In this document: in pieces, positions 18,494-60,375 of the stretch | How positions within the stretch are numbered: the first letter of the stretch is position 1 | How the letters are laid out: each line of letters begins with the position of its first letter | Assembly (NCBI RefSeq): GCF_000379765.1 | Contig: NZ_KB903430.1 | Span: 282,945-346,944, forward strand | Direction: 5' to 3' | Source of the DNA: Flexithrix dorotheae DSM 6795 | GTDB taxonomy: Bacteria; Bacteroidota; Bacteroidia; Cytophagales; Flammeovirgaceae | DNA length: 64,000 nt | The notes under the pieces: model-generated | What the model saw: the letters and a program-made list of their open reading frames with translations, nothing else | What the model was told of the DNA's origin: nothing | Database searches by the model: none | Made by a program: the position numbers and the translations under genes

Positions 18494-19678
18494 ATGATCG
18501 ATCAAGACCTTAATTTAGAAACCATTCATTTAGAATACACCAAAGATTTTAATGCTCAGGAAAAGGAAAGAAAACATATTATATTAATAGATGGCACTTG
18601 GAATGATGAAACAGGGGTAGGCCTGGATGGACTGGTAACCAACATCGTACAACTTCAGCGGATATTAAAGAACGATGAGGAAAAGCAAATTGTAAGGTAT
18701 CATCGGGGTGTAGGGAATGATGATGACAATGGTTTTTTGGGAAATTTAATAGGTGGAGCCACTGGAAGAGGAGTGGAAGATATTGTAGAAAGGGCATATG
18801 TCCGTTTTGTGCAGGACTGGCAGAAGGGTGATAAAATTTGTGTATTTGGTTTTAGCCGGGGCGCTGCAGCTGCAAGAATGCTGGCTGCTAAAATTTGCAA
18901 AGAAGGAGTGCCAAAATCGATAAAAATCGACTATATGGCCAGAGAAAATAAAGCCACAAAAGTGGTAGAACAATTTATGTCAAAATTTGACCTGGATACC
19001 TCAAGAGCTCCTTTTCAGGTGGAAGTTGATTTTGTAGGGGTTTGGGATACAGTAAGTGCTTTTGGTCTGTTTAATAACCTCCAACGTTTTTTAGGCAAAA
19101 AGGAAAAGGATTTATTTACCGACAATTATATCGCAGATAATATAAAAAGGGCTGTTCATCTTTTAGCAATGGACGAAACAAGGCGGATTTTTGTACCTTC
19201 CTTAATGAACCAGATTGAGGATAAAAATCACAACTCAATCGAAAATAAAATACATGAAGTATGGTTTCCCGGAGTACATTCTGATATAGGCGGGAGTTAT
19301 AAAGAAGATGAAATTGCTAAAGTTTCCCTTTACTATATGCTCAAAAAATTTCATGAGTATGTAAATGACCAGGGTTATGCGCCCTTGCTTATTGATGAGG
19401 AAATGTATAAAAAACGTACACTAATCACTACACAAAGGGCTCATTTCCATTTTTTTGGTTTATCCCGTGGAGAAGGACTCAGGCATATAAAAACCCAGGT
19501 TCATGGAATGGCCGACCCGGTACGTAAGCCAAAAATTCACAGGCTTTACTATGACTTGTGCGGCTCCCACCAAACTTTTTCGGTGGTGCCTTTTGGAAAA
19601 GTAACACGTCCCATCAAATTTCAATATATGCCTTTTAATGTAAAAACATTAAGGGGAAATTTCGAAATAGTGGATTAA
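18494..19678 (+). CDS. DUF2235 alpha/beta-hydrolase (phospholipase-effector-like)
   Basis: A 394-residue protein. DUF2235 features: HIILIDGTWNDE near residues 28-38, YHRGVGND, GGATGRGVEDIVERAYVRF, and the nucleophile elbow CVFGFSRGAAAARM with Ser121. Later VGVWDTVSAFG and EVWFPGVHSDIGGSY give the probable catalytic acid and histidine. Some family members are type VI secretion lipases that attack phospholipids, but no Tss, VgrG or immunity gene lies nearby and there is no signal peptide. A housekeeping or defence lipase role is equally possible. It overlaps the convergent aminotransferase gene by four bases. Confidence 0.88.
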   Translation: MIDQDLNLETIHLEYTKDFNAQEKERKHIILIDGTWNDETGVGLDGLVTNIVQLQRILKNDEEKQIVRYHRGVGNDDDNGFLGNLIGGATGRGVEDIVERAYVRFVQDWQKGDKICVFGFSRGAAAARMLAAKICKEGVPKSIKIDYMARENKATKVVEQFMSKFDLDTSRAPFQVEVDFVGVWDTVSAFGLFNNLQRFLGKKEKDLFTDNYIADNIKRAVHLLAMDETRRIFVPSLMNQIEDKNHNSIENKIHEVWFPGVHSDIGGSYKEDEIAKVSLYYMLKKFHEYVNDQGYAPLLIDEEMYKKRTLITTQRAHFHFFGLSRGEGLRHIKTQVHGMADPVRKPKIHRLYYDLCGSHQTFSVVPFGKVTRPIKFQYMPFNVKTLRGNFEIVD

Positions 19679-46990: not shown

Positions 46991-48112
46991 ATGAAAACAC
47001 TTATTTTGAAAAGGAACATTGTTATAAACTTAACTTTGGGTTGCATTTTAACGCTGGCATTCACACTGGAAACACTTGCTCAAAGTCCAATGCTTTTTCG
47101 CAATGACGGCAAAACTTTTGCGCTAAAGGAATTAGATTTCATGTCGCATGGAGTTGAATATATTAAGGAAAATGACCCTGTAGAAGCCAAAAACAGTTGT
47201 CTTAATTTTGATATATTATTGCTTATTTATCCATTAGGAACTTATCATTATTATTCCAAGCCTCAGGATAAATTGGTAAATGTTGAATATTCCAATAGTA
47301 GGAATAATAAGATAGATAAAATAATTACCCGTGATGAAAGGGTCATTCCTGCCAATATCCTGGGTACAAATGGTGGCTCATATCAATACACAGATTTGAA
47401 TACAGGGGAAGACGCTGTAATGAAACAAGATCAGGTATTAGCCATATTATTTAAGGATGGAAACTATAAATTCTTCTCTGACAAAGTTACAGTTGCTTCA
47501 GCACTCCAAAAAATCGCAGATCAAATAAATACATTTAATAATGCGATGGTGGGCACACAGGGAGGAAACCAGATTCCTACCATGCCAGAGGATAATCTGG
47601 AAGAAGAATTACCTGATTTTAACCGTCAACTTTTCAGAGATAAAGCGCTTTCAAAAACCAAGGAATTAGGCGACTATTTAAGCCTTATTTCCAATAAAAA
47701 CACAAAATTCCAAAAGGCAAACGAGGCTATAGATGCTGCTGTAAAGTTATTTTTGAATGAGGATGCCATTATGGAGGTATCTTCTGTAAACCGGAGTGAA
47801 GTACAGAAATATAAAATCAGAAAGTATTTTGAAAGACTCAAACTACTGAAATATTCTGAAATAAAAATTACCTGGTCAAATATTTCTTATGTGAGTAATA
47901 TAAAGAAGCATGAGGATGGTAACTATTATGGAATTGTAACTCTGGAACAAAAATTTGACGGATACAATTCCGATGGGCAGCTTGTCTATTCCGATGTAAC
48001 CAAAAAGAATATGACCGTAATCTTAAAAACCTATGATAAATATGTTGTGGGGAAAAAAGAAACACACTGGGATGTATATCTTGGTGACATCGGTGTAGTA
48101 GTAACAAAATAG
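46991..48112 (+). CDS. Exported protein of unknown function, first gene of the surface cluster
   Basis: Start taken at ATG 46991 (373 residues); the TTG seven codons earlier has no signal-peptide sense. Signal peptide through about residue 31 (NLTLGCILTLAFTLETLAQ). Two segments are recognisable. Around residues 88-150 (KIDKIITRDERVIPANILGTN, then KQDQVLAILFKDGNYKFF) is a small SH3-like motif common in Bacteroidota envelope proteins. The C-terminal 140 residues (ANEAIDAAVKLFLNEDAIMEV onwards to YGIVTLEQKFDGYNSDGQLVYSDVTKKNMTV) look NTF2-like. Function unknown. The next gene begins 18 bases after the stop. Confidence 0.7.
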   Translation: MKTLILKRNIVINLTLGCILTLAFTLETLAQSPMLFRNDGKTFALKELDFMSHGVEYIKENDPVEAKNSCLNFDILLLIYPLGTYHYYSKPQDKLVNVEYSNSRNNKIDKIITRDERVIPANILGTNGGSYQYTDLNTGEDAVMKQDQVLAILFKDGNYKFFSDKVTVASALQKIADQINTFNNAMVGTQGGNQIPTMPEDNLEEELPDFNRQLFRDKALSKTKELGDYLSLISNKNTKFQKANEAIDAAVKLFLNEDAIMEVSSVNRSEVQKYKIRKYFERLKLLKYSEIKITWSNISYVSNIKKHEDGNYYGIVTLEQKFDGYNSDGQLVYSDVTKKNMTVILKTYDKYVVGKKETHWDVYLGDIGVVVTK

Positions 48113-48130
48113 TTAACCAAACGACTTCTA

Positions 48131-48937
48131 ATGAAATTCCTTTTTGTAATATTTATTGGACTATTCGCAATTCCAGCTGTGGCCCAGATTGGCAATGGGC
48201 TGGATGAAGAAAGGTTTGCCTTTGAGGTAAAACAAATTGATGAATTTTTTGAAAGATTCAACAATTCTGATAAAACCTTAATTGCAACATATATAAAAGA
48301 AAATTTTAATGGGCATGAAGTTACCAGAGATGAATTGATAAACTCTCTTTTTAATATGCAGGATAATTCATGGAATAAGGATGAAAAAAATGAATTCATA
48401 GCTTTGGTTAATTCCAATCCTTATTTTCTTAGCTTTTATGATCCAAATTGGTTTGCGGAGCTTAATTGTACTGTCGATTATAAGGGGCAATCATATCCTC
48501 TGCAAATGATTATGAAGGTGGAATATTCACCTGAAACTGAATCAACCAAATGGGTTATTTCAGCTGTTAAGGGCGATTTCCTTGAACCTCCTTTTAGTAC
48601 AAATAAATCCAAATCACTAAACCCTGCAAGCCATGGTACAAACTTCATTTCACTTGACCGAGCGTTTATTGATACTTCGAACATCAGAAATTATGTCAGT
48701 AGCGATTTTCAGGCGGACCAACTATCTATATTCTTAAGCTTACTTCCATCAAAATCTCTTGTTTTCAAACAGGTAGACAAAATCACTTACCACTTTCTAC
48801 AAGTTAATGGATGGGTTTTTACCGTAGAAAATTTTGAGAGAAGAACTAAAAACTCAGGTTGGCTAATTAGTAAATTAAGAAAAATGGACGATTCGCAGAA
48901 AGAAAGCTACAAATTGAAAGCTTTAAATTTAAATTAA
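48131..48937 (+). CDS. Exported NTF2-like-pattern protein of unknown function
   Basis: A 268-residue protein with a signal peptide (MKFLFVIFIGLFAIPAVAQ). Residues about 28-145 begin with a long helix (FEVKQIDEFFERFNNSDKTLI) and end with strands (WFAELNCTVDYKGQSYPLQMIMKVEY, WVISAVKGDFL), an NTF2-like succession. The C-terminal half (GTNFISLDRAFIDTSNIRNYVSS, ITYHFLQVNGWVFTVENFERR) is a second domain I do not recognise. The next gene starts three bases after its stop, so the two are very probably cotranscribed and translationally linked. Confidence 0.65.
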   Translation: MKFLFVIFIGLFAIPAVAQIGNGLDEERFAFEVKQIDEFFERFNNSDKTLIATYIKENFNGHEVTRDELINSLFNMQDNSWNKDEKNEFIALVNSNPYFLSFYDPNWFAELNCTVDYKGQSYPLQMIMKVEYSPETESTKWVISAVKGDFLEPPFSTNKSKSLNPASHGTNFISLDRAFIDTSNIRNYVSSDFQADQLSIFLSLLPSKSLVFKQVDKITYHFLQVNGWVFTVENFERRTKNSGWLISKLRKMDDSQKESYKLKALNLN

Positions 48938-48940
48938 CCT

Positions 48941-50242
48941 GTGAAAAACTATATTTTTCTTTTCGCCATTGCCTTTTTTGCACCGTACTTTTCAGTTTTT
49001 AGTCAGGAACTTTCCGAAAGTGATCAGAAAGAAATAAAATTTCTGTCAGAGGGATTTGTAGGAGAGTTTGAATTACTATTAAATCTTCTGAACGACCCTG
49101 ATTTAGGAGAATACCAGAAGAAAGAGATTGCAGAAAACAGTTATAATCCTAAATCAGGAAACCGGATTTTCAAAGATGCTGATGTGATTATTGAGGACGA
49201 CATTGATCCCAATAATACAAGTTTTGAGAATGTAAAGGATTTAAAAGTAAAGAGGTATTTAAATGACTATGAACTCTTCTATGAAAAGAAAAGCGAAAAT
49301 TCAGTTGAATTCTCAGATATCACACTTTTCAGTGTAAAACAAGATGAATATGTTTATACTGAAGTTTATTTTAAAAGTAAATTTAACAGTAAACATAGGA
49401 TAAAAAACATTTCTTATACGCAAACTGAAAGGGTTGCTACGATAAAAGCAGAAAGAATCAATAATAAATGGGTTCCTTTAATTGTAAGTGTAGTCTTTTA
49501 TAATCCTGCCCTTCATATAAATGAGGAAATTAAAAAAATTCCTCTGGATATCCCCAAAAACATAATGGCTAATAAACAGGAAATCTATCAATTAGGGATT
49601 TCATGGACGCCTATTGCCAATAAAGTGGATTCAATTACTTATGAGGTTTATATGAACGATAAGTTAATTGGAGTAACAGGAAATGAATTTTTTGATATTT
49701 CTGATCTTGAAGCAGACTCTGAATACCGTTTTCACATTATAGCCAAGGAGGAAAAAACTGGTCGTGTATCTGAAAAAAGTGACATTACACCTATTAAAAC
49801 CCTACCTAAACCTCTGGTTCAGAGCTATTCTTTTACAGAAATAAAAGGGAAATATGTAAAAGGGAAAAGTTACAATATTACCTGGGCAAATAGCCTAAGT
49901 GGAATTGGAAGTAAATTAGAAATTTTACAAAACGGAAGGCTTGTCAATACCATTTCCAATAATGATCCGGATGGATCTTTCAGTTGGAGTCCGGATTTAT
50001 ATAATGCAGGCACCGGCTACCAGTTTAGAGTAAGTGATCCTCAGGATTCTAGAAACAAGGCTATCAGTAAGGAATTTAAAATATCCAGAAAAGTACCTTT
50101 ATGGTTAAAAGTTGCTCCTGTAATTGTGGCGGGTGCCGTTGTTGGAGTTTTGGTAGCTGGAGATTCCGGTGATGGTGATAAAAAGGATGAACCAGGAGGA
50201 AACACTGGAAATTCCATTTTGGCTGAGCCTGGGAAGCCTTAA
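48941..50242 (+). CDS. Exported protein with FN3 and Kre9-like domains and a C-terminal membrane segment
   Basis: Start GTG at 48941, 433 residues. A signal peptide (MKNYIFLFAIAFFAPYFSVFSQ) precedes an alpha/beta region to about residue 200 (LLNLLNDPDLGEYQKKEIAENS, VKRYLNDYELFYEKKSENSVEFSDITLF) that again looks NTF2-like. Residues about 213-290 read as a fibronectin type III domain (ISWTPIANKVDSITYEVYMND, FDISDLEADSEYRFHIIA). Residues about 295-385 resemble a Kre9/KNH-type sandwich (GKYVKGKSYNITWANSL, GSFSWSPDLYNAGTGYQFRVSD). A hydrophobic helix (LWLKVAPVIVAGAVVGVLVAG) and a short acidic, proline-ending tail follow. Function unknown. Confidence 0.65.
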   Translation: MKNYIFLFAIAFFAPYFSVFSQELSESDQKEIKFLSEGFVGEFELLLNLLNDPDLGEYQKKEIAENSYNPKSGNRIFKDADVIIEDDIDPNNTSFENVKDLKVKRYLNDYELFYEKKSENSVEFSDITLFSVKQDEYVYTEVYFKSKFNSKHRIKNISYTQTERVATIKAERINNKWVPLIVSVVFYNPALHINEEIKKIPLDIPKNIMANKQEIYQLGISWTPIANKVDSITYEVYMNDKLIGVTGNEFFDISDLEADSEYRFHIIAKEEKTGRVSEKSDITPIKTLPKPLVQSYSFTEIKGKYVKGKSYNITWANSLSGIGSKLEILQNGRLVNTISNNDPDGSFSWSPDLYNAGTGYQFRVSDPQDSRNKAISKEFKISRKVPLWLKVAPVIVAGAVVGVLVAGDSGDGDKKDEPGGNTGNSILAEPGKP

Positions 50243-50319
50243 TATATATCCATATCAATTCAGCAAATCTTTCGGCCAATTAAAGCCATACGAATAGCAT
50301 TTTACAAACAACTGAAACT

Positions 50320-53300
50320 ATGAAAAAGAGTTTACAAATAGTATTGATATTCTTCATTACTATTCCCACTGTTTATGGGCAATTAAAATTAGTGGATAAG
50401 GTCACAGATGGAGACCTTACTTTACCTCATTCAGCTGCTGTTAGCCCAGATAATAATTACATTTATGTAGCATCATTTGAAGGTTTTATTAATATTTATA
50501 AAAAAGAACCCTCAGGTGAATTAAGCTTTGTAGATGCATTTAAAGACAAAGATAAACTTAATGGCGCAAACTCATTAATTGTCTCTCCTGATGGTAATTT
50601 TTTATATGCCTGTGCTGTAAATACTGGTAATGTTGATGGAAAATTAGTCCTTTTTGATATCAATAAAACAGATGGAAAAATTACTTACAAGGACATCATT
50701 GAAAATATTCATGAACCAAACTCTCTCCACTTTAGCCAGGATAAGGATGGGAAATATTTGATTTTAGTAGAAGTAAAAGGCAATAATATTTTGATTTATG
50801 AAAGAGATCTAAGTTCTGGTAAACTATCCATTAAAAATACTATAGGTGGATTTAAATTTCCAAGAGAATTAATTATTTCCCCTGACGATAAACATTTATA
50901 CGTAACTGAAGCTGGAAATAAATCTGTTACCCTGGTTAACAAAAACGCAGATTGGTCTGCTGCTAGTTTTGTAAAACGTTATGATGCAGGAGGTAATGAT
51001 GCTTCCAGTGATCAGCTGGGCCCATTCGGAGTGGATATTTCTAAGGATGGAAAATTTGTATTTGTTGGTAATAGAAATGATTTTTCTCTTTTATCTTATA
51101 GTAGAAGCCCTTCATCTGGTGAATTAATTCAAAAGGATATAGTTGAACACAAAACAAACGATAATTTAGATAGGATTAGAAAAGTATTGGTCTCTCCGAT
51201 AAGCAATCAAAATTTTGTATATGTTTCAGCAGAATCAAGTAATCGGGTTTCAGTTTATACTTATGATGATAATGGAAATTTTTCCCTGGAACAAGTGGTA
51301 ATACAAACCATGAATCGACCAATTGACATGGCCATCTCCTCTGATAATAAATATTTATATACATGTGCATTTTCCGAAGGAGCTTTATTTGTTTTTGCCA
51401 TACCTGAACCCCTGGTAAATGACCCTTCCGTTTCATCCATTACTCCCAATCAGGGTACAATCGGGACAGAAGTTACCATTTCAGGAGAATATTTTGGGAC
51501 AGATAAGGGAAAAGTCAGTTTTGGGAATATAATTATCGAAGGAAATGCCATTACAGAATGGACCAGAACTTCAATAAAGACTTCTGTTCCTGCAGGAATA
51601 AGTGGAAGTGTGGAGGTGAAAATCATTACTTCTGATAGTAAAGAAGCAGTTGCTCCTGAGAAATTCAAAGTGATTTCTGCAATTAATGAAATAGTAAACC
51701 CCGCTGCCAAGATTGGAGATGAGGTTACCATTTCGGGTTCGGGGTTTGGTTCTGCCGGACAGGTAAACGTTGGTTCAGTCACAGTTTCCTCTGATCAGGA
51801 CGGTGTAGTGTGGAGCCAGACTTCTATTAAGCTAAAAGTGCCTGATGGATTAAGCAGTAATGTAAGTGTTACTGTGGAAGTTGACGGGAATAAAAGCGCT
51901 GGTAAAACATTAGCAATCATTCCGGAGATTACTAACCTTGATAAAACCAGTGGTTTACCAGGTAATGAGGTCACTTTAACCGGAAACGGTTTTGGAAGTA
52001 CTCAGGGAAGTAGTGTGGTAAAATTCGGTTCACGGACCGCCTTGATAAAATCTGGCAGTTGGTCACAAAAAGAAATTGTGGCCATTGTTCCAATCAATTT
52101 GGAAGGAGAAGTTGATGTTTCTGTAAAAGTAGGAAATCAGACTGGGGTTTTCCCCACTAAATTTAAAGTCACGTTATCCCCATCAATTTCGGATTTTGAC
52201 CCAAAATCGGGAAGCCCGGGATCAAAATTTACAGTAAGCGGTAATAATTTTGGTATTTTAAATGGAGAATTATTGTTTGGATCTTTAAATGCATCAATTG
52301 AAACCTGGACAAATACTTCAATTTCAGGAATTATTCCCAATGAAGCTTTTGGGGATCAGCCTATTACTGTAAAGACTACTAGTGGGCTCTCAGCAAATTC
52401 GGGAGCAGTTCTTTATTCAGTAATCCCGCTAATTGATGAAGGTAATTCCGAATTAGAAGATAAAATTGGGGATGATGTCACCATTGTAGGAAAAGGATTT
52501 GGAAATACCACAGGTATTGTATCATTTGGAAATTCTCCTGCCACCATTAATAATTGGAGTAATACTTCTATAAATGTAACTGTACCTACTGGCATTCACA
52601 ATGATGTGAGCTTAAAAGTAGAAGCCTCAAATGCAAAATCAGATGCGGTTACTTTTGGTGTAGTTCCCGAAATTACCGGTATTAAACCTGCTGAGGTCCA
52701 TGAGGGGCAACAAGTTTCTGTAGAGGGTAGTGGATTTGGACCGGTTGCAGAACAGGGACAGTTACAATTAGCCGGATCTAATATTACCCCAAACTCCTGG
52801 GCGGATAATAACATTTCATTTACTGTTCCGGAAGGGACCACACTAGGCAATATTGAGATAAAGGTTATTAGTAATAATGGTAAGGAAGATGCAAATGCTG
52901 ATTTAAAAATCATCGCGAAACCTGTTACAGGTCCTGAAATCACCGCTATCGATCCAGGAAAAGGCAAAAATGGTTCCCTTGTAAAAATTATGGGGAAACG
53001 ATTTGGAACTGATAAAGCTACTGTAAAAGTTTCTTTTGGGGAAACCGAGGCAAATATTGAAAATATAACTGATAATGAAATCCAGGTTAAAATACCCGAG
53101 AATATAAGTGGGAATATAGAAGTTACTGTAGAAAAAGGTGGAGAATCGAGTAAAGGGGCATTTTCAATTATTCCAACAATAAATAGTCTGAATTTATTGA
53201 AAGGGAAACCTGGAGATATGGTAATTGTTAGCGGAAAAGCTTTTGGACCAGCTGCAGGAAGCAATGGATTTGTTAAATTTGGAGATTCAAATGCCGAAAT

Positions 53301-55110
53301 CGCTGATGGAGGCTGGTGGGAAACTGAGGTTAAGGTTATCGTTCCTGATATACCTGAAGGTGTGGTAAATATTGTTGTTTCAGCCTTTAATGGAGAAACT
53401 GACACCCTTCCAAATGGCTTTACTGTAGAGGCCAAAGACACCATCATTATTCCACCTGGGGAGAATCCTATTATCAATTTTACTCCAAATGGACTCGTCA
53501 ACAATGGTTTGAATAGCCTTGCAGTTTCAGCCACATTTGAAGAAAACACGACAATTTCAGAATTAAAATTAATGTACTCAGGTATTCAATTCCCTGATAA
53601 ATCGGCTTCAAAAACTTTTACAGTAGCCCCCGCTAAAGGCTTGGTCAATGAAACATTTGAGGACCTTCCTTTTGATCAGGACGGGATTGGTATAAAAGTC
53701 CAGTTATCTTATTCTGCTAATGGGAAAAACTTCACTACAGACCCAATACCAGTATATAAAAATTTCCCGGACGGAATTACAAAAGATGCCACTGAATTTA
53801 TTTATGGGACTAAAGAAGATGATTACCAAATAATTGCCTTCCCTCTAAACAGACCCAATCATCAAAGTGTTACCGTTGCTTTGGAAGATGATTTAAAAGC
53901 TTATGATAATACGCTTTGGAGGTTATGGCATTACAATAATGGTAATAACATTGAATTTAAAACAGGTTTTACTACCCTGGAACAAGGCAAGGGGTATTGG
54001 CTTATTATGAGACATGCAGACTCTGTATTTAGATCAACCAAATCTATTGATACAGGAGAGGGAACAACAGAATTACCAAATGATGAACCTTTTACCATTT
54101 CTTTGAAGCAAGGATGGAACCTCATCGGCAACCCTTATACCTTCGATGTAAATTGGACTGACATTGTTAACTTTAATCCTGGATTTTCATCCTCAGAAAA
54201 CCTTAAAGTATTTAATAGAGGATTTAAGGATGGAGATGTGCTTAAGGCGTTCGAGGGAGGATTTGTTTTTAGTGATGGATCATTTGAATTGAAAATTCCA
54301 ATTGAGCAAAATATTCCATCAGGAGGAAGAATGGCTAAAGGCCTGGTGGAAAAAAATGCAATAGATCAGGAATCCTGGAAAGTAGATTTAAGTTTAACAG
54401 CCGGAGAAATAAAAAATAGTATTGGAGCTTTAGGTATGCATCCATATGCAGAATTAAGCAAGGATAGATATGATCAAATGGCGCTGCCCCGTTTCCTGTC
54501 TTATTTAGAAACTAATTTTTCCCATCCGGAATATTTTTTCCCAAGGTTTGCTCAGGACATAGTTTCTACATCTGAGGGACATACATGGGAATTTTCGGTG
54601 AATACCAATCATGAATTAAGCCCAACCATCGAAATGAACTGGGACAACTCTTATTTTGGGGATAATGATAAAAGCCTGATTTTGGTAGATTTAGCATCCG
54701 GAAAGGTGATTGACATGCGAAAAAATACTCAGCACACCTACCCAAATAGCCCGGAAAGGAAGTTTAAAATTTATTTCGGTGATCAGGACTACATTTCTGA
54801 TAACCTGAACATGGGCGAAGTCGCCCTTGGTAACGCTTACCCTAATCCTTTAGAGGTTTCTACCAACATTCCATTTGTACTTCCAGGTGCTCAGGAAGAA
54901 TTTCATGTCACCCTCACCATTTATGATCATTTGGGTAGAGAAGTGAATATGCTTATCGATCAAAAATTCAAATCTGGATTTTACGAAACTACATGGAGCG
55001 GAGATGGAACAAATGGAAGTAAAGTTAGCCATGGCCTTTACATTTACCAGCTAAAAGTTTCAGGACAAAATATTGAAAAAATCTACACAAGAAAAATGCT
55101 GGTAAAATAG
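50320..55110 (+). CDS. Giant T9SS-exported protein: beta-propeller, eight IPT/TIG repeats, sorting domain
   Basis: A 1596-residue protein with a signal peptide (MKKSLQIVLIFFITIPTVYGQ). Residues about 22-365 form a seven-bladed-type propeller of the YncE/lactonase kind (repeated motifs such as SPDNNYIYVASF, SPDGNFLYACAV, SPDDKHLYVTEA, SSDNKYLYTCAF). Eight IPT/TIG immunoglobulin-like repeats follow to about residue 1037. After a linker domain and a WNLIGNPYTFDVNW-type segment, the last 95 residues are a T9SS type A sorting domain (LGNAYPNPLEVSTNIPFVLP, TIYDHLGREV, SHGLYIYQLKVSG, KMLVK). It would be secreted by T9SS and attached at the cell surface. Adhesion or binding is inferred. A terminator follows. 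Confidence 0.9.
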   Translation: MKKSLQIVLIFFITIPTVYGQLKLVDKVTDGDLTLPHSAAVSPDNNYIYVASFEGFINIYKKEPSGELSFVDAFKDKDKLNGANSLIVSPDGNFLYACAVNTGNVDGKLVLFDINKTDGKITYKDIIENIHEPNSLHFSQDKDGKYLILVEVKGNNILIYERDLSSGKLSIKNTIGGFKFPRELIISPDDKHLYVTEAGNKSVTLVNKNADWSAASFVKRYDAGGNDASSDQLGPFGVDISKDGKFVFVGNRNDFSLLSYSRSPSSGELIQKDIVEHKTNDNLDRIRKVLVSPISNQNFVYVSAESSNRVSVYTYDDNGNFSLEQVVIQTMNRPIDMAISSDNKYLYTCAFSEGALFVFAIPEPLVNDPSVSSITPNQGTIGTEVTISGEYFGTDKGKVSFGNIIIEGNAITEWTRTSIKTSVPAGISGSVEVKIITSDSKEAVAPEKFKVISAINEIVNPAAKIGDEVTISGSGFGSAGQVNVGSVTVSSDQDGVVWSQTSIKLKVPDGLSSNVSVTVEVDGNKSAGKTLAIIPEITNLDKTSGLPGNEVTLTGNGFGSTQGSSVVKFGSRTALIKSGSWSQKEIVAIVPINLEGEVDVSVKVGNQTGVFPTKFKVTLSPSISDFDPKSGSPGSKFTVSGNNFGILNGELLFGSLNASIETWTNTSISGIIPNEAFGDQPITVKTTSGLSANSGAVLYSVIPLIDEGNSELEDKIGDDVTIVGKGFGNTTGIVSFGNSPATINNWSNTSINVTVPTGIHNDVSLKVEASNAKSDAVTFGVVPEITGIKPAEVHEGQQVSVEGSGFGPVAEQGQLQLAGSNITPNSWADNNISFTVPEGTTLGNIEIKVISNNGKEDANADLKIIAKPVTGPEITAIDPGKGKNGSLVKIMGKRFGTDKATVKVSFGETEANIENITDNEIQVKIPENISGNIEVTVEKGGESSKGAFSIIPTINSLNLLKGKPGDMVIVSGKAFGPAAGSNGFVKFGDSNAEIADGGWWETEVKVIVPDIPEGVVNIVVSAFNGETDTLPNGFTVEAKDTIIIPPGENPIINFTPNGLVNNGLNSLAVSATFEENTTISELKLMYSGIQFPDKSASKTFTVAPAKGLVNETFEDLPFDQDGIGIKVQLSYSANGKNFTTDPIPVYKNFPDGITKDATEFIYGTKEDDYQIIAFPLNRPNHQSVTVALEDDLKAYDNTLWRLWHYNNGNNIEFKTGFTTLEQGKGYWLIMRHADSVFRSTKSIDTGEGTTELPNDEPFTISLKQGWNLIGNPYTFDVNWTDIVNFNPGFSSSENLKVFNRGFKDGDVLKAFEGGFVFSDGSFELKIPIEQNIPSGGRMAKGLVEKNAIDQESWKVDLSLTAGEIKNSIGALGMHPYAELSKDRYDQMALPRFLSYLETNFSHPEYFFPRFAQDIVSTSEGHTWEFSVNTNHELSPTIEMNWDNSYFGDNDKSLILVDLASGKVIDMRKNTQHTYPNSPERKFKIYFGDQDYISDNLNMGEVALGNAYPNPLEVSTNIPFVLPGAQEEFHVTLTIYDHLGREVNMLIDQKFKSGFYETTWSGDGTNGSKVSHGLYIYQLKVSGQNIEKIYTRKMLVK
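51431..53435 (+). repeat. Eight tandem IPT/TIG-encoding repeats
   Basis: Each unit of roughly 80 codons follows the pattern I-x-x-(I/L/F)-x-P-x-x-G-x-x-G-x-x-V-x-(I/V)-x-G-x-x-F-G, e.g. SITPNQGTIGTEVTIS, NLDKTSGLPGNEVTLT, AIDPGKGKNGSLVKIM. The units are clearly related in protein but divergent in DNA, so the array is old rather than recently amplified. Unit 5 has an unusual start (DEGNSELEDKIGDDVTIVG). Confidence 0.85.
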
Positions 55111-55151: not shown

Positions 55152-55183
55152 AAAAGGCTGTTGGAGAAATCCAACAGCCTTTT
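55152..55183. terminator. Bidirectional terminator between the surface-protein gene and dnaK
   Basis: AAAAGGCTGTTGG (55152-55164) pairs with CCAACAGCCTTTT (55171-55183) around a six-base loop. A-run and T-run flanks let it work for both converging transcripts. Confidence 0.85.
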
Positions 55184-57444: not shown

Positions 57445-60207
57445 TCAGTTGAGGTTGGGGAGGCTAATAGTGAAAGTAGAACCTTCTCCTACCTGAGACT
57501 TAAGATCTATTTTACCGTTTAGCCTGGAAACTGATTCACTTACAATATAAAGGCCCAAACCACTACCCTTTATATCCTGACTTGCACGAAAAAACATTCC
57601 GAAAACTTTCTTTCGATGCCCCTCTTTTATCCCAATTCCGTTATCCTCTACCTTTAAAGTAGCTGCCGAGTTACCTACTTCTACGCTTACTTTTACATAA
57701 GAATCGGGTTTATGAGGCATGGCATACCGAAAGGCATTTGAAATTAAATTCCCCAGGATTACTTTTAATCGGTTTTTATCAGAAAAGAATAAATAATCCT
57801 GATTGACCTCTATGGATAAGGTTACCTGATCCGAGTTTTCTCCATATTCATACTTTTCGGCTAACTCCTCCAACAAAATATTAAAGTCAATATTCTCCTT
57901 TTGGATTTCAAGACGAGTGTCCCGGGACAGGTCAATCAGGTCCTGAATGAATTCATTTAATTTGATTACACTTTTTTCTTTGAGTCGAATATATTCCTGG
58001 ATTTTTTCCACATCAGTTTCCAGTTTTGAAAGCGTAATCAGGCCTAAAATTGAATTAAGAGGAGCCATTAAATCATGCGATACCGAGTATACAAATTGAT
58101 CAAGTTCTTTATTTACCTTTTCAAGCTCCTGATTTTTTTCCTTAAGGTCGTTTTCTGCTTTTTTCCTTTTTGAAATATCGTTAATCGTAACAATTTTATA
58201 GGGTTTGTTGGCTTCGCCCTTAAAAGGAGCACCTGTAATAAATATGTCAAGCTTGTTTCCATTTTTTTGAATGCCCTGGCTCTCAAAAGATAATTTTTCA
58301 TTTAAATCTTTAAGCTTTTCCATAGCCTTTGAAGCCAAAATTTCATCAAGTTTCCTATTGAGAATTTCCTGCTGGTCATAACCAAACCTCCCACAAAAAT
58401 ATTGATTAACCCGCTCAATTTGCTCATGCTCATTTACCAGTACCATCCCCACATTCATGGCATTAAAAATATTATCAAGCATTTCCTTATTTACCCTTAA
58501 GATCTCTGCAGCCTGCTCATTTACCGTAATATCATGAGATATCACGATCACACCGGTAATTTTTTTATTGAGCTTGATGGGAAACACTTTAAACAAAAGG
58601 ATATTTTCATTGCCTTTTTGATTAATCACCTTATCGATATACTCACAGGATTCTCCGGAAAGGGCCTTATCATATCTTTTTTTCCACAACTCATTCATTA
58701 AATTAGATGGGGTAGTCTTAAAAATGTTATCCCCAACATTTATTTTCACATTAAACCTTGCATAATAGACCCTTAGGAAATTTTGATTACAGTCAGTTAA
58801 CTCATACTTATCGTTGATCAGCCAGATTGTATTATCATTATTTTCCAAAAATGTTTTTAGGTTTAACTGATCCTGCTTTGCCTTCATTTCTCCTTCTTCC
58901 CATTGAAACATTTGTTCCCCAGGATTTTCAGTTCTAAGTACCTCATAAACATCCTGCTGAAGTAAATTTGAGGTATTGAACAGGTCAAAAAAAGGATCTT
59001 CCGAAGAAATATTTAAGATTTGAGGTTCGAATTCTTGTGACCAGGAAACCCTTCCCAATGTTCCGATTAATTCATTTATCCTTGTACGCTGGTTTTTTTC
59101 TATATCCGCTCTTTTCCTTCTTTCTGCTTCCACTAATGTGATTAGTTCCCGCTTGGATAAACGCTCTAAATCTTCCTTGGTCTGCAGCATTGATGCACTT
59201 TTGATATCAGTCCCCTGGGCAGCCCCCTTATTTTGAAGACAACAGGCAATTCCTTCATGAATAGATTTTACTGATACTATGGGAGGAGTGTTGTTTTGGG
59301 AAAACAACCTGGTAAAAAAAAATTTCACTTTATCAACATTTGAAGAAACTTTGTAAATTGCATTCCAGTGGTTAATAAAAGTTTTATTCGACTTATTAAG
59401 TATTTTTTTAAATCCCTTATCAAAAAGATAAAATTCAGAAATATCCGTAATCACATAAACCTGTTCCTTCCCCGCTACGAAAAATACCTTCTCAAAAATA
59501 TCAATCACTTTTGTGAATAAATTACCCGGAATCCTACCAAAATCTTTAATAAGCAAAATATCCGCACCCAAAAGGAATACATTAATAAAAAAGTTACCTG
59601 ATTCACTATAAAGATTCCATTCGGGGCGATTTAGCAGGGATATTTTTTTCCCATTCGAGTAAATATGTTTGCGATTGAGCCAACTACTGTCCCATTCCGT
59701 ATTTATAAATCCACTTCCTGAATCATCAATTAAACTTGCGGAATTTAATTTATATTTTTGAATTTCGGCAGTAGCACCCGCCAGGTCATCGTGAAAGCTA
59801 ATAGAAAAATTACGGAAAAAGTAAGTAGCCAACCGTATCATATTTAATACATATGAAACCCCTCCAACAACACTGACATGGTCTATCAGATTTTCTTTAT
59901 CAAGCTTTTTTTCAAATTCGAGAAATAAATTTCTGCCTTTACGGCTAACTCCTTCATATAGCCGTACATCCAGAATAAAATAAATACCGGAAACTTTAAG
60001 GTAGGGTTTTATTTCCTTAAGAATTTTTTCCGCAATTACCAAGTCACCCTGCACGGATTGTAAACTTGCAAATCCTTTTCGGGTAATAAGAATGGTATTG
60101 CCTCCCAAATCCTCATATTGTACACTATAAGAGCCATTTTCATCTTTGAAAAAAAGCTCTTCTTTGGAAAATGGTAATACAAATTCTTCTTTGGCTTGCA
60201 CATTCAT
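57445..60207 (-). CDS. Cytoplasmic PAS-domain histidine kinase with tandem STAS-like N-terminal domains
   Basis: Start taken at ATG 60207 (920 residues); a GTG six codons earlier also keeps frame. No membrane segment is seen. Residues about 1-160 and 165-325 look like two STAS/SpoIIAA-like domains (GIYFILDVRLYEGVSRKGRNLFLEF; QVYVITDISEFYLFDKGFKKIL). A coiled coil (EDLERLSKRELITLVEAERRKR) and two PAS domains (LENNDNTIWLINDKYELTDCN; NAMNVGMVLVNEHEQIERVN) follow. The HisKA domain has phosphoacceptor His711 in SVSHDLMAPLNSILG, and the HATPase domain has NLISNAFRYA, VEDNGIGIKEG and GSGLGLYIVSES. No receiver domain is fused and no response regulator is adjacent. It probably senses a cytoplasmic signal. 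Confidence 0.9.
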   Translation of the reverse strand: MNVQAKEEFVLPFSKEELFFKDENGSYSVQYEDLGGNTILITRKGFASLQSVQGDLVIAEKILKEIKPYLKVSGIYFILDVRLYEGVSRKGRNLFLEFEKKLDKENLIDHVSVVGGVSYVLNMIRLATYFFRNFSISFHDDLAGATAEIQKYKLNSASLIDDSGSGFINTEWDSSWLNRKHIYSNGKKISLLNRPEWNLYSESGNFFINVFLLGADILLIKDFGRIPGNLFTKVIDIFEKVFFVAGKEQVYVITDISEFYLFDKGFKKILNKSNKTFINHWNAIYKVSSNVDKVKFFFTRLFSQNNTPPIVSVKSIHEGIACCLQNKGAAQGTDIKSASMLQTKEDLERLSKRELITLVEAERRKRADIEKNQRTRINELIGTLGRVSWSQEFEPQILNISSEDPFFDLFNTSNLLQQDVYEVLRTENPGEQMFQWEEGEMKAKQDQLNLKTFLENNDNTIWLINDKYELTDCNQNFLRVYYARFNVKINVGDNIFKTTPSNLMNELWKKRYDKALSGESCEYIDKVINQKGNENILLFKVFPIKLNKKITGVIVISHDITVNEQAAEILRVNKEMLDNIFNAMNVGMVLVNEHEQIERVNQYFCGRFGYDQQEILNRKLDEILASKAMEKLKDLNEKLSFESQGIQKNGNKLDIFITGAPFKGEANKPYKIVTINDISKRKKAENDLKEKNQELEKVNKELDQFVYSVSHDLMAPLNSILGLITLSKLETDVEKIQEYIRLKEKSVIKLNEFIQDLIDLSRDTRLEIQKENIDFNILLEELAEKYEYGENSDQVTLSIEVNQDYLFFSDKNRLKVILGNLISNAFRYAMPHKPDSYVKVSVEVGNSAATLKVEDNGIGIKEGHRKKVFGMFFRASQDIKGSGLGLYIVSESVSRLNGKIDLKSQVGEGSTFTISLPNLN

Positions 60208-60375
60208 AATGAAATCATGGAACACCTGGATGGGATAAAACTTCTCATATATTTAGGCTGTAAAAGCCAGCCAAATATTCGAACCTACCCGAATTTAACA
60301 AATTGATTTAAGTTATGTACTTACCTCGTCAAATTAGAATTTAGGTATACCTAAAAACATGTCTTAAAAATAGAC

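Follow-up and report, generated by a model that had tools for sequence, protein, structure and literature searches.

Putative gene-linked Ig/tail partner of a giant type A T9SS cargo in Flexithrix dorotheae: a conserved pair within an uncommon four-gene set

Cargo proteins of the type IX secretion system (T9SS) that carry a type B signal are usually encoded side by side with a cognate PorP/SprF protein, with PorE present in some of the operons (PMC10202324, PMC9143113, PMC12618676). Examples are SprB-SprF and PG1035-PorP-PorE, and it has been proposed that the partner retains the cargo on the surface (PMC9143113, PMC12618676). SprF has been reported to be disulfide-bonded to GldK, with the cysteines of its C-terminal tail being important for gliding (PMC12635249). 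While dedicated partners are known for type B cargo, type A cargo is described as having a common shuttle, PorV (PMC12618676). The present analysis concerns four genes (genes 1–4, Table 1) at positions 46,991 to 55,110 of a 64,000-nucleotide stretch of the genome of Flexithrix dorotheae DSM 6795 (contig NZ_KB903430.1, positions 282,945 to 346,944; the whole stretch is referred to as the window). Here, a giant type A cargo (gene 4) was found to be linked to a probable membrane partner of its own (gene 3). A first-pass annotation of this DNA had taken the four genes for a surface complex or its assembly set, a proposal which is now supported mainly for genes 3 and 4, genes 1 and 2 having been found to belong to another set.

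The partner of the gene 3 type, with an immunoglobulin-like (Ig) domain and a short tail, and the giant with the module designated F4C form a conserved gene pair, and this is a stronger finding than the four-gene cluster itself. F4C was found in 37 of 380 genomes of the order (54 loci) and in eight of 395 genomes taken class-wide, five of the eight being from a family of another order; five further loci were gained in this way, giving 59 in total. The partner was searched with A6, a 14-sequence profile from which L024, L062, L078 and L080 were left out (G, C and L are our handles for genomes, contigs and loci). Among the A6 matches listed, an Ig/hydrophobic-segment protein of this family lies within 8 kb in 45 of the 59 F4C loci, on the same strand in 43 and on the opposite strand in 2. 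By script, 38 of the same-strand partners are upstream and five downstream, one of the five (G082) being upstream by its open reading frames (ORFs), and the distance between partner and F4C gene, with gene ends approximate, is often below 100 bp. Simple arithmetic, taking genomes of several Mb with between one and four partner genes each, gives a chance expectation of approximately 1% of loci. The pair reaches the family of the other order, where it was seen in four of the five loci, the gene in the fifth being cut at the contig start.

No partner was listed for 14 F4C loci, of which ten hold genes cut by a contig end, while in G120 the gene starts 390 bases from the contig end. A protein with the tail ELPSPPSPSN was observed downstream of the contig-cut F4C gene of G022, and contig C129 of G119 encodes a 348-residue protein with a hydrophobic end and the tail DLPLPYATPPR, which is outside the A6 matches listed. 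Viewed from the partner side, 41 of 53 separate order-level A6 genes adjoin F4C (again among the matches listed). Six of the other 12 are immediately followed by an ORF that is cut by a contig end (G069, G107 C227 and C537, G120, G151 C23 and G330 C57). Among the A6 genes with no F4C neighbour, G094 C180 and G107 C124 are broken or incomplete, G000 C28 (from the genome of the window) has neither segment nor tail, and G008 C142 and G011 C5, which are of one genus, possess the segment and end seven to eight residues after it. The tail protein of G144 C114 adjoins caspase, F1C and F2 genes. The pairing count left out A6 matches inside F4C giants (tandem Ig repeats), other large ORFs and weaker rows. 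It worked with approximate gene ends and took the broken G094:C92, which has two rows, as a single locus. This locus (L131) contains a broken pair of partner and F4C genes with several stops.

The fibronectin type III (Fn3) domain, the Ig domain, the hydrophobic segment and the proline tail of gene 3 were all absent from the first-pass annotation. The Kre9/KNH-type Ig model (PF10342) matches 13 of the 14 A6 members at E <= 0.01, and in family f4 the stalk of the cargo contains 9–10 tandem copies of the partner's own Ig domain (L056, L057, L058, L062, L096, L097 and L101). The hydrophobic segment of gene 3 spans approximately residues 387–405, with a basic side before it and an acidic side after it. 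The same polarity was found across the partners, the mean charge being +2.9 before the segment and –1.3 after it, with the before-side more positive in 47 of 48. At least two prolines occur among the last 12 residues in 47 of the 48 partner proteins with distinct tails (for example LPEPPLPDGQ, IPDPITPTGN and LPVPPEPN), the sole exception being the broken copy G094:C92. These 48 derive from 56 partners with 52 distinct tails, counting those with a hydrophobic segment and subtracting four with no F4C neighbour. Within the genus, the last residues are LAEPGKP in gene 3 and LAEPGTP in genome G001.

For gene 4, the first-pass annotation had recognized a propeller, eight TIG repeats and a T9SS sorting domain, and all of these held up (Table 1), while the F4C module had gone unmentioned. 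Among the 24 F4C members scanned there was no match in Pfam and one chance-level match in NCBIfam; no credible match was obtained among PDB sequences. The NCBIfam type A model TIGR04183 exceeds its cut-off on the last 100 residues of gene 4 taken alone and reaches 18.7 bits, under the cut-off of 23, on the whole protein. In Pfam, PF18962 (type A) scores 26.6 against a cut-off of 27 and PF13585 (type B) scores 27.0 at a cut-off of 27, and the NCBIfam type B model TIGR04131 is not among the gene 4 matches. When 34 of the 52 obtainable sorting domains of F4C proteins were scanned, TIGR04183 matched 33 at E <= 0.01, with TIGR04131 matching three and PF18962 32. Together with this sorting domain, gene 4 was found to possess a Sec-type start, and SprA, at which the search for T9SS machinery was aimed, is encoded in the genome (2332 bits, cut-off 200); on these grounds gene 4 is classed as a type A T9SS cargo. 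It is highly improbable that the protein is a secreted enzyme with the propeller acting as a lactonase and the remainder as carrier. The propeller does match Pfam Lactonase and NCBIfam 6-phosphogluconolactonase; however, the latter match, at 62.9 of 370 bits, is far under the cut-off for an enzyme-level assignment, other F4C cargo have different N-terminal parts (Ig repeats, Fn3), and, within the genus, conservation along gene 4 is lowest in the propeller (55% identity to G001).

The locus resembles the PorP/SprF pairs in that a large cargo gene is clustered with a dedicated partner gene. It differs from them in its signal, which scores as type A, and in its partner, an Ig protein with one hydrophobic segment, a proline tail and no recognizable PorV-like barrel. 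The partner is also mostly upstream of the cargo, whereas sprF is directly downstream of sprB (PMC12618676). No PorP/SprF barrel was found next to gene 4, as genes 1–3 have no match to such a family and the following ORF is DnaK-like. Given the type A-scoring signal and the Ig partner, the arrangement is cargo-partner-like, yet it is not a member of PorP/SprF. The same observations bear on the idea that gene 4 is the mobile adhesin of an SprB-like complex for gliding or adhesion. Gene 4 is indeed giant, Ig-stalked and T9SS-exported, with clustered partner genes and SprA in the genome. However, SprB has a type B signal and an SprF barrel (PMC12618676, PMC9143113), neither of which corresponds to what was found here, gene 4 scoring best as type A in NCBIfam, and we regard a complex of this kind as decidedly unlikely. 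With the type A cargo served by PorV the F4C proteins share their sorting domains, nearly all of which match TIGR04183. The difference is that PorV is described as a shared shuttle (PMC12618676), whereas F4C genes mostly have a linked partner of their own and the proteins an extra F4C module before the signal. The partner shares its Ig domain with Kre9/KNH-type Ig proteins; its hydrophobic segment, tail and gene neighbourhood are outside the PF10342 model.

A second conserved unit is formed by the C-terminal domain of gene 1 (F1C), the family of gene 2 (F2) and the N-terminal domain of gene 3 (F3N). Comparison of profiles indicates that F1C and F3N are homologous (hhalign: 96.6%, E 5e-10, 128 columns). 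As the iterated F3N and F1C profiles absorbed each other's members, this homology rests on fresh alignments in which each member was kept to one family, the members themselves having been selected from the iterated profile searches. Gene 2 was also considered as a further F1C/F3N copy; this is unsupported by sequence (profile-profile 0.3% and 0.1%). Including weak matches, F1C was found in 42 and F2 in 41 of 97 genomes of relatives. For 38 of 45 strong F2 matches an F1C domain lies within 1.5 kb upstream on the same strand, and three of the seven F2 matches with no upstream F1C sit at contig edges. An F3N protein is directly downstream of 34 of the 39 F2 ORFs in the loci that were read, near-duplicates included. 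A frequent arrangement combines a KKK-rich lipoprotein-like gene with genes for an F1C protein of 195 residues, for F2 and for a longer F3N protein; contig C14 of the window's own genome encodes such a longer F3N protein with leucine-rich-like repeats (by eye). Nine F3N proteins, including gene 3, were read in this genome (the others being L018, L020, L021, L022, L023, L024, L025 and L026), and their C-termini vary between tetratricopeptide repeats, Ig domains, barrel-like ends (by eye) and little else.

The first-pass annotation had assigned NTF2-like or SH3-like patterns to genes 1–3, of which the SH3-like part of gene 1 is supported and the NTF2-like fold was unconfirmed, the structure models being poor (mean predicted local distance difference test (pLDDT) of 42.4 for gene 1 and 43.6 for gene 2, each model built with three sequences from the window, L005 and L006). 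No NTF2-like family in Pfam matched genes 1–3. Within the otherwise poor model of gene 1, the middle part is predicted with some support to be an SH3/Sm-like barrel; a Foldseek search matched SHD1, Hfq and other small barrels weakly, with no match at E <= 0.001. Genes 1 and 2 gave no credible Pfam or NCBIfam family and no credible relative among PDB sequences, and profile searches of PDB sequences with A1, A2, A3, A6 and A7 likewise gave no credible match. No credible Pfam or NCBIfam model was found for F1C, F2, F3N or F4C, with the window member alone searched for F2 in both databases and for F1C and F3N in NCBIfam.

Co-occurrence of homologues, on which the first-pass grouping of the four genes depends, is split between the two units, since the Ig/tail–F4C pairing is frequent while F2 is beside F4C in just six of the 54 order loci, although these are from four families (G000, which is the window, G001, G005, G094, G119 and G368). 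F1C was seen at F4C in G000, G005, G119 and G368, and the contigs of G001 and G094 end before the F1C position. The window and contig C129 of G119 show the complete order F1C-F2-tail protein-F4C, and the same order is present from F2 onward in G001 and in G094, the latter with one extra ORF, whereas G005 and G368 have the same members in a different order. As F2 is found at so few F4C loci and the F1C-F2-F3N set is conserved in its own right, the cluster joins two conserved units; the four-gene combination is real, yet uncommon by comparison with either unit. It is possible, if on balance doubtful, that genes 3 and 4 alone cooperate, with genes 1 and 2 being an unrelated periplasmic operon which came to lie in front through the F3N fusion of gene 3. 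The F1C-F2-F3N set often occurs away from F4C, F2 being present in 119 of the 380 order genomes (F2 was searched in the order genomes) as against 37 for F4C. G008 has genes 1-2-3, and G011 the same across two contigs, with no adjoining F4C gene, and contig C11 of the window's own genome has homologues of genes 3 and 4, with no F1C or F2 found there. What counts against an unrelated operon is the presence of F2 at F4C in six loci of four families, which in G005, G119 and G368 occurs with no detected F3N fusion.

Genes for caspase-like proteins (Peptidase_C14) with signal-peptide-like starts were observed beside F1C-F2 in six of 13 loci (L074:13785-14999, L138:7331-8443, L139:2365-3471, L141:141-1301, L103:2831-3907 and L110:16315-17436), one of the six being fused to an F1C domain. 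The 13 loci were hand-chosen as second copies or F4C neighbours, and second copies in G102 and G270 were left out. In G119, which is one more of the 13 loci, two protein kinase genes are found immediately before the F1C-F2-tail protein-F4C genes (L098:1218-4656).

Such neighbours would be expected if the locus were a periplasmic protease or signalling module, in which exported caspase-like enzymes or kinases would be under the control of F1C and F2 proteins, with the giant as sensor or target. This appears unlikely to us, as among the ORFs of the window neither a caspase-like nor a Ser/Thr kinase gene was noticed (by reading, with Pfam run on eight), nor was one noticed, by eye only, in the core loci. 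A histidine-kinase-like ORF is present at 57445–60225, on the opposite strand and beyond the DnaK-like ORF.

The reading that we favour, with a modest degree of confidence, sees in the cluster a set specific to one cargo, a giant type A T9SS protein, which it would anchor or assemble by an inferred mechanism. The gene 3 product would be made together with the gene 4 cargo and would be kept in the envelope by its hydrophobic segment. During or after passage of the cargo through SprA, it may bind F4C by its Ig domain or its tail, as a result of which the giant would stay on the surface. Gene 1, gene 2 and the F3N domain could act together in the periplasm as a complex, either handling the cargo or linking it to the cell wall, while the propeller of gene 4 would bind a target outside the cell.

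Several observations weigh against this anchoring or assembly set. PorV has been reported as the sole shuttle on which type A cargo relies (PMC12618676), and the type B model PF13585 also matches 18 of the 34 sorting domains of F4C proteins. The scarcity of F2 at F4C loci has been described above, and G081 C26 and G115 C8, with readable surroundings, have no Ig/tail partner beside F4C. Of the 14 seeds of A6, 13 lie beside F4C, for which reason the A6 query is not independent of the association, although the scans themselves were genome-wide. In a mirror-tree comparison of partner Ig and F4C over 43 pairs, the Spearman coefficient was 0.136, a value matched by 423 of 2000 within-genome shuffles, with distances that look saturated; tree congruence as a sign of co-evolution between partner and F4C is consequently unsupported. 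The stretch of segment and tail is the least conserved part of gene 3 within the genus (54% identity; ratio of nonsynonymous to synonymous substitution rates (dN/dS) of 0.39). The contrast between proteins with a tail and those without depends on a single genus, represented by the genomes G008 and G011, and the protein of G144 C114 bears a tail with no F4C on its contig. Finally, the charge pattern around the partner segment is unlike that of a simple inner-membrane stop-transfer segment. Because the charges are reversed relative to the usual, the outer membrane is a possible home of the gene 3-type partner, a location suggested by hydropathy and charge only.

A bolder form of the anchoring reading, which we put forward tentatively and consider rather unlikely, is a third class of T9SS cargo and partner. 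In this case F4C-marked type A giants would be captured by an Ig protein of their own, held by a single outer-membrane helix with the proline tail outside. The helix would have its basic side towards the periplasm, the exposed proline tail would bind F4C and retain the giant, and genes 1 and 2 would give the anchor its base in the periplasm. If true, this would mean a helical instead of a barrel-type anchor, and specificity would reside in a region other than the sorting domain.

The four-gene set suggests a dedicated, apparently undescribed means of holding giant surface proteins. In the open-licence literature, no paper was found on such a set, nor any which joins T9SS with NTF2-like proteins, accessories of giant adhesins, TIG domains, Ser-Thr-rich proteins, cognate type A clusters or transmembrane-helix anchors; no description of the pair of Ig/tail partner and F4C giant was found there either, and it is apparently undescribed. 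With an uncatalogued module, and with a short tail open to deletion, the surface retention of giant Bacteroidota proteins becomes directly testable, and neighbours and profiles have been gained for five families (F1C, F2, F3N, F4C and the Ig/tail partner).

The layout given in the first-pass annotation, four collinear plus-strand ORFs with gaps of 18, 3 and 77 bases, was verified by the coordinates (Table 1). Its statement that all four products are exported also agrees with inspection by eye, which found in each a signal-peptide-like start followed by Q, with the surrounding residues LETLAQ/SPM in gene 1, PAVAQ/IGN in gene 2, SVFSQ/ELS in gene 3 and TVYGQ/LKL in gene 4; in the last of these, a hydrophobic N-terminus precedes Q at residue 21. 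These starts were judged by inspection, and a narrow scripted Q pattern flagged genes 2 and 4 only. Genes 1–4 conform to the 'Q-rule' of Bacteroidetes, which predicts Q after the signal peptide (PMC5837995). Comparison with G001, which covers genes 2–4 (gene 1 falls beyond the G001 contig), gave dN/dS of approximately 0.02, 0.07 and 0.11 for genes 2, 3 and 4, respectively, with saturated dS, showing constraint on these three genes within the genus.

Table 1. Coordinates of genes, domains and signals, in positions of the window
Feature	Position	Strand	Description
Gene 1	46991..48112	+	373 aa, exported; SH3/Sm-like barrel and C-terminal F1C domain
SH3/Sm-like small barrel of gene 1 (predicted)	47309..47485	+	Residues ~107-165; pLDDT 71-82 at 111-150, 54-60 at 151-170
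F1C domain of gene 1	47630..48106	+	Homologous to the N-terminal domain of gene 3
Gene 2	48131..48937	+	268 aa, exported F2 family protein
Gene 3	48941..50242	+	433 aa, GTG start, exported; F3N, Fn3, Kre9-type Ig, hydrophobic segment, proline tail
F3N domain of gene 3	49010..49465	+	From profile searches/comparison
Fn3 domain of gene 3	49553..49777	+	Residues 205-279; Pfam fn3 E 3e-5, 24.5 bits vs cut-off 25
Kre9/KNH-type Ig domain of gene 3	49853..50083	+	Pfam E 1.5e-4, 22.8 bits vs cut-off 24.6
Hydrophobic (putative membrane) segment of gene 3	50099..50155	+	Kyte-Doolittle 2.29, 19 residues from 387
Proline tail of gene 3, C-terminal	50213..50239	+	SILAEPGKP
Gene 4	50320..55110	+	1596 aa, giant T9SS cargo
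Lactonase-like propeller of gene 4	50428..51417 (approximate ends)	+	Pfam Lactonase E 1e-24
Eight TIG/IPT repeats of gene 4	51418..53440 (approximate ends)	+	E 3e-65
F4C module of gene 4, conserved	53677..54807	+	~370 residues, between TIG repeats and sorting domain
Type A T9SS C-terminal sorting domain of gene 4	54808..55107	+	TIGR04183 26.8 bits, cut-off 23, last 100 residues alone
Terminator-like hairpin, bidirectional	55152..55183	.	14 pairs, loop 4; between gene 4 and the convergent DnaK-like ORF

The scan for terminator-like sites has no entry in the space between genes 3 and 4 (50242–50320). Promoter-like sites in the scan were at chance level, both for a sigma-70-like pattern (31 found, 34.6 expected) and for a Bacteroidota-type pattern (six found, 6.3 expected). 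The ORF after gene 4 was assigned as DnaK-like by reading. Elsewhere in the window, at 18494–19678, there is an ORF which we take to resemble a DUF2235-type hydrolase.

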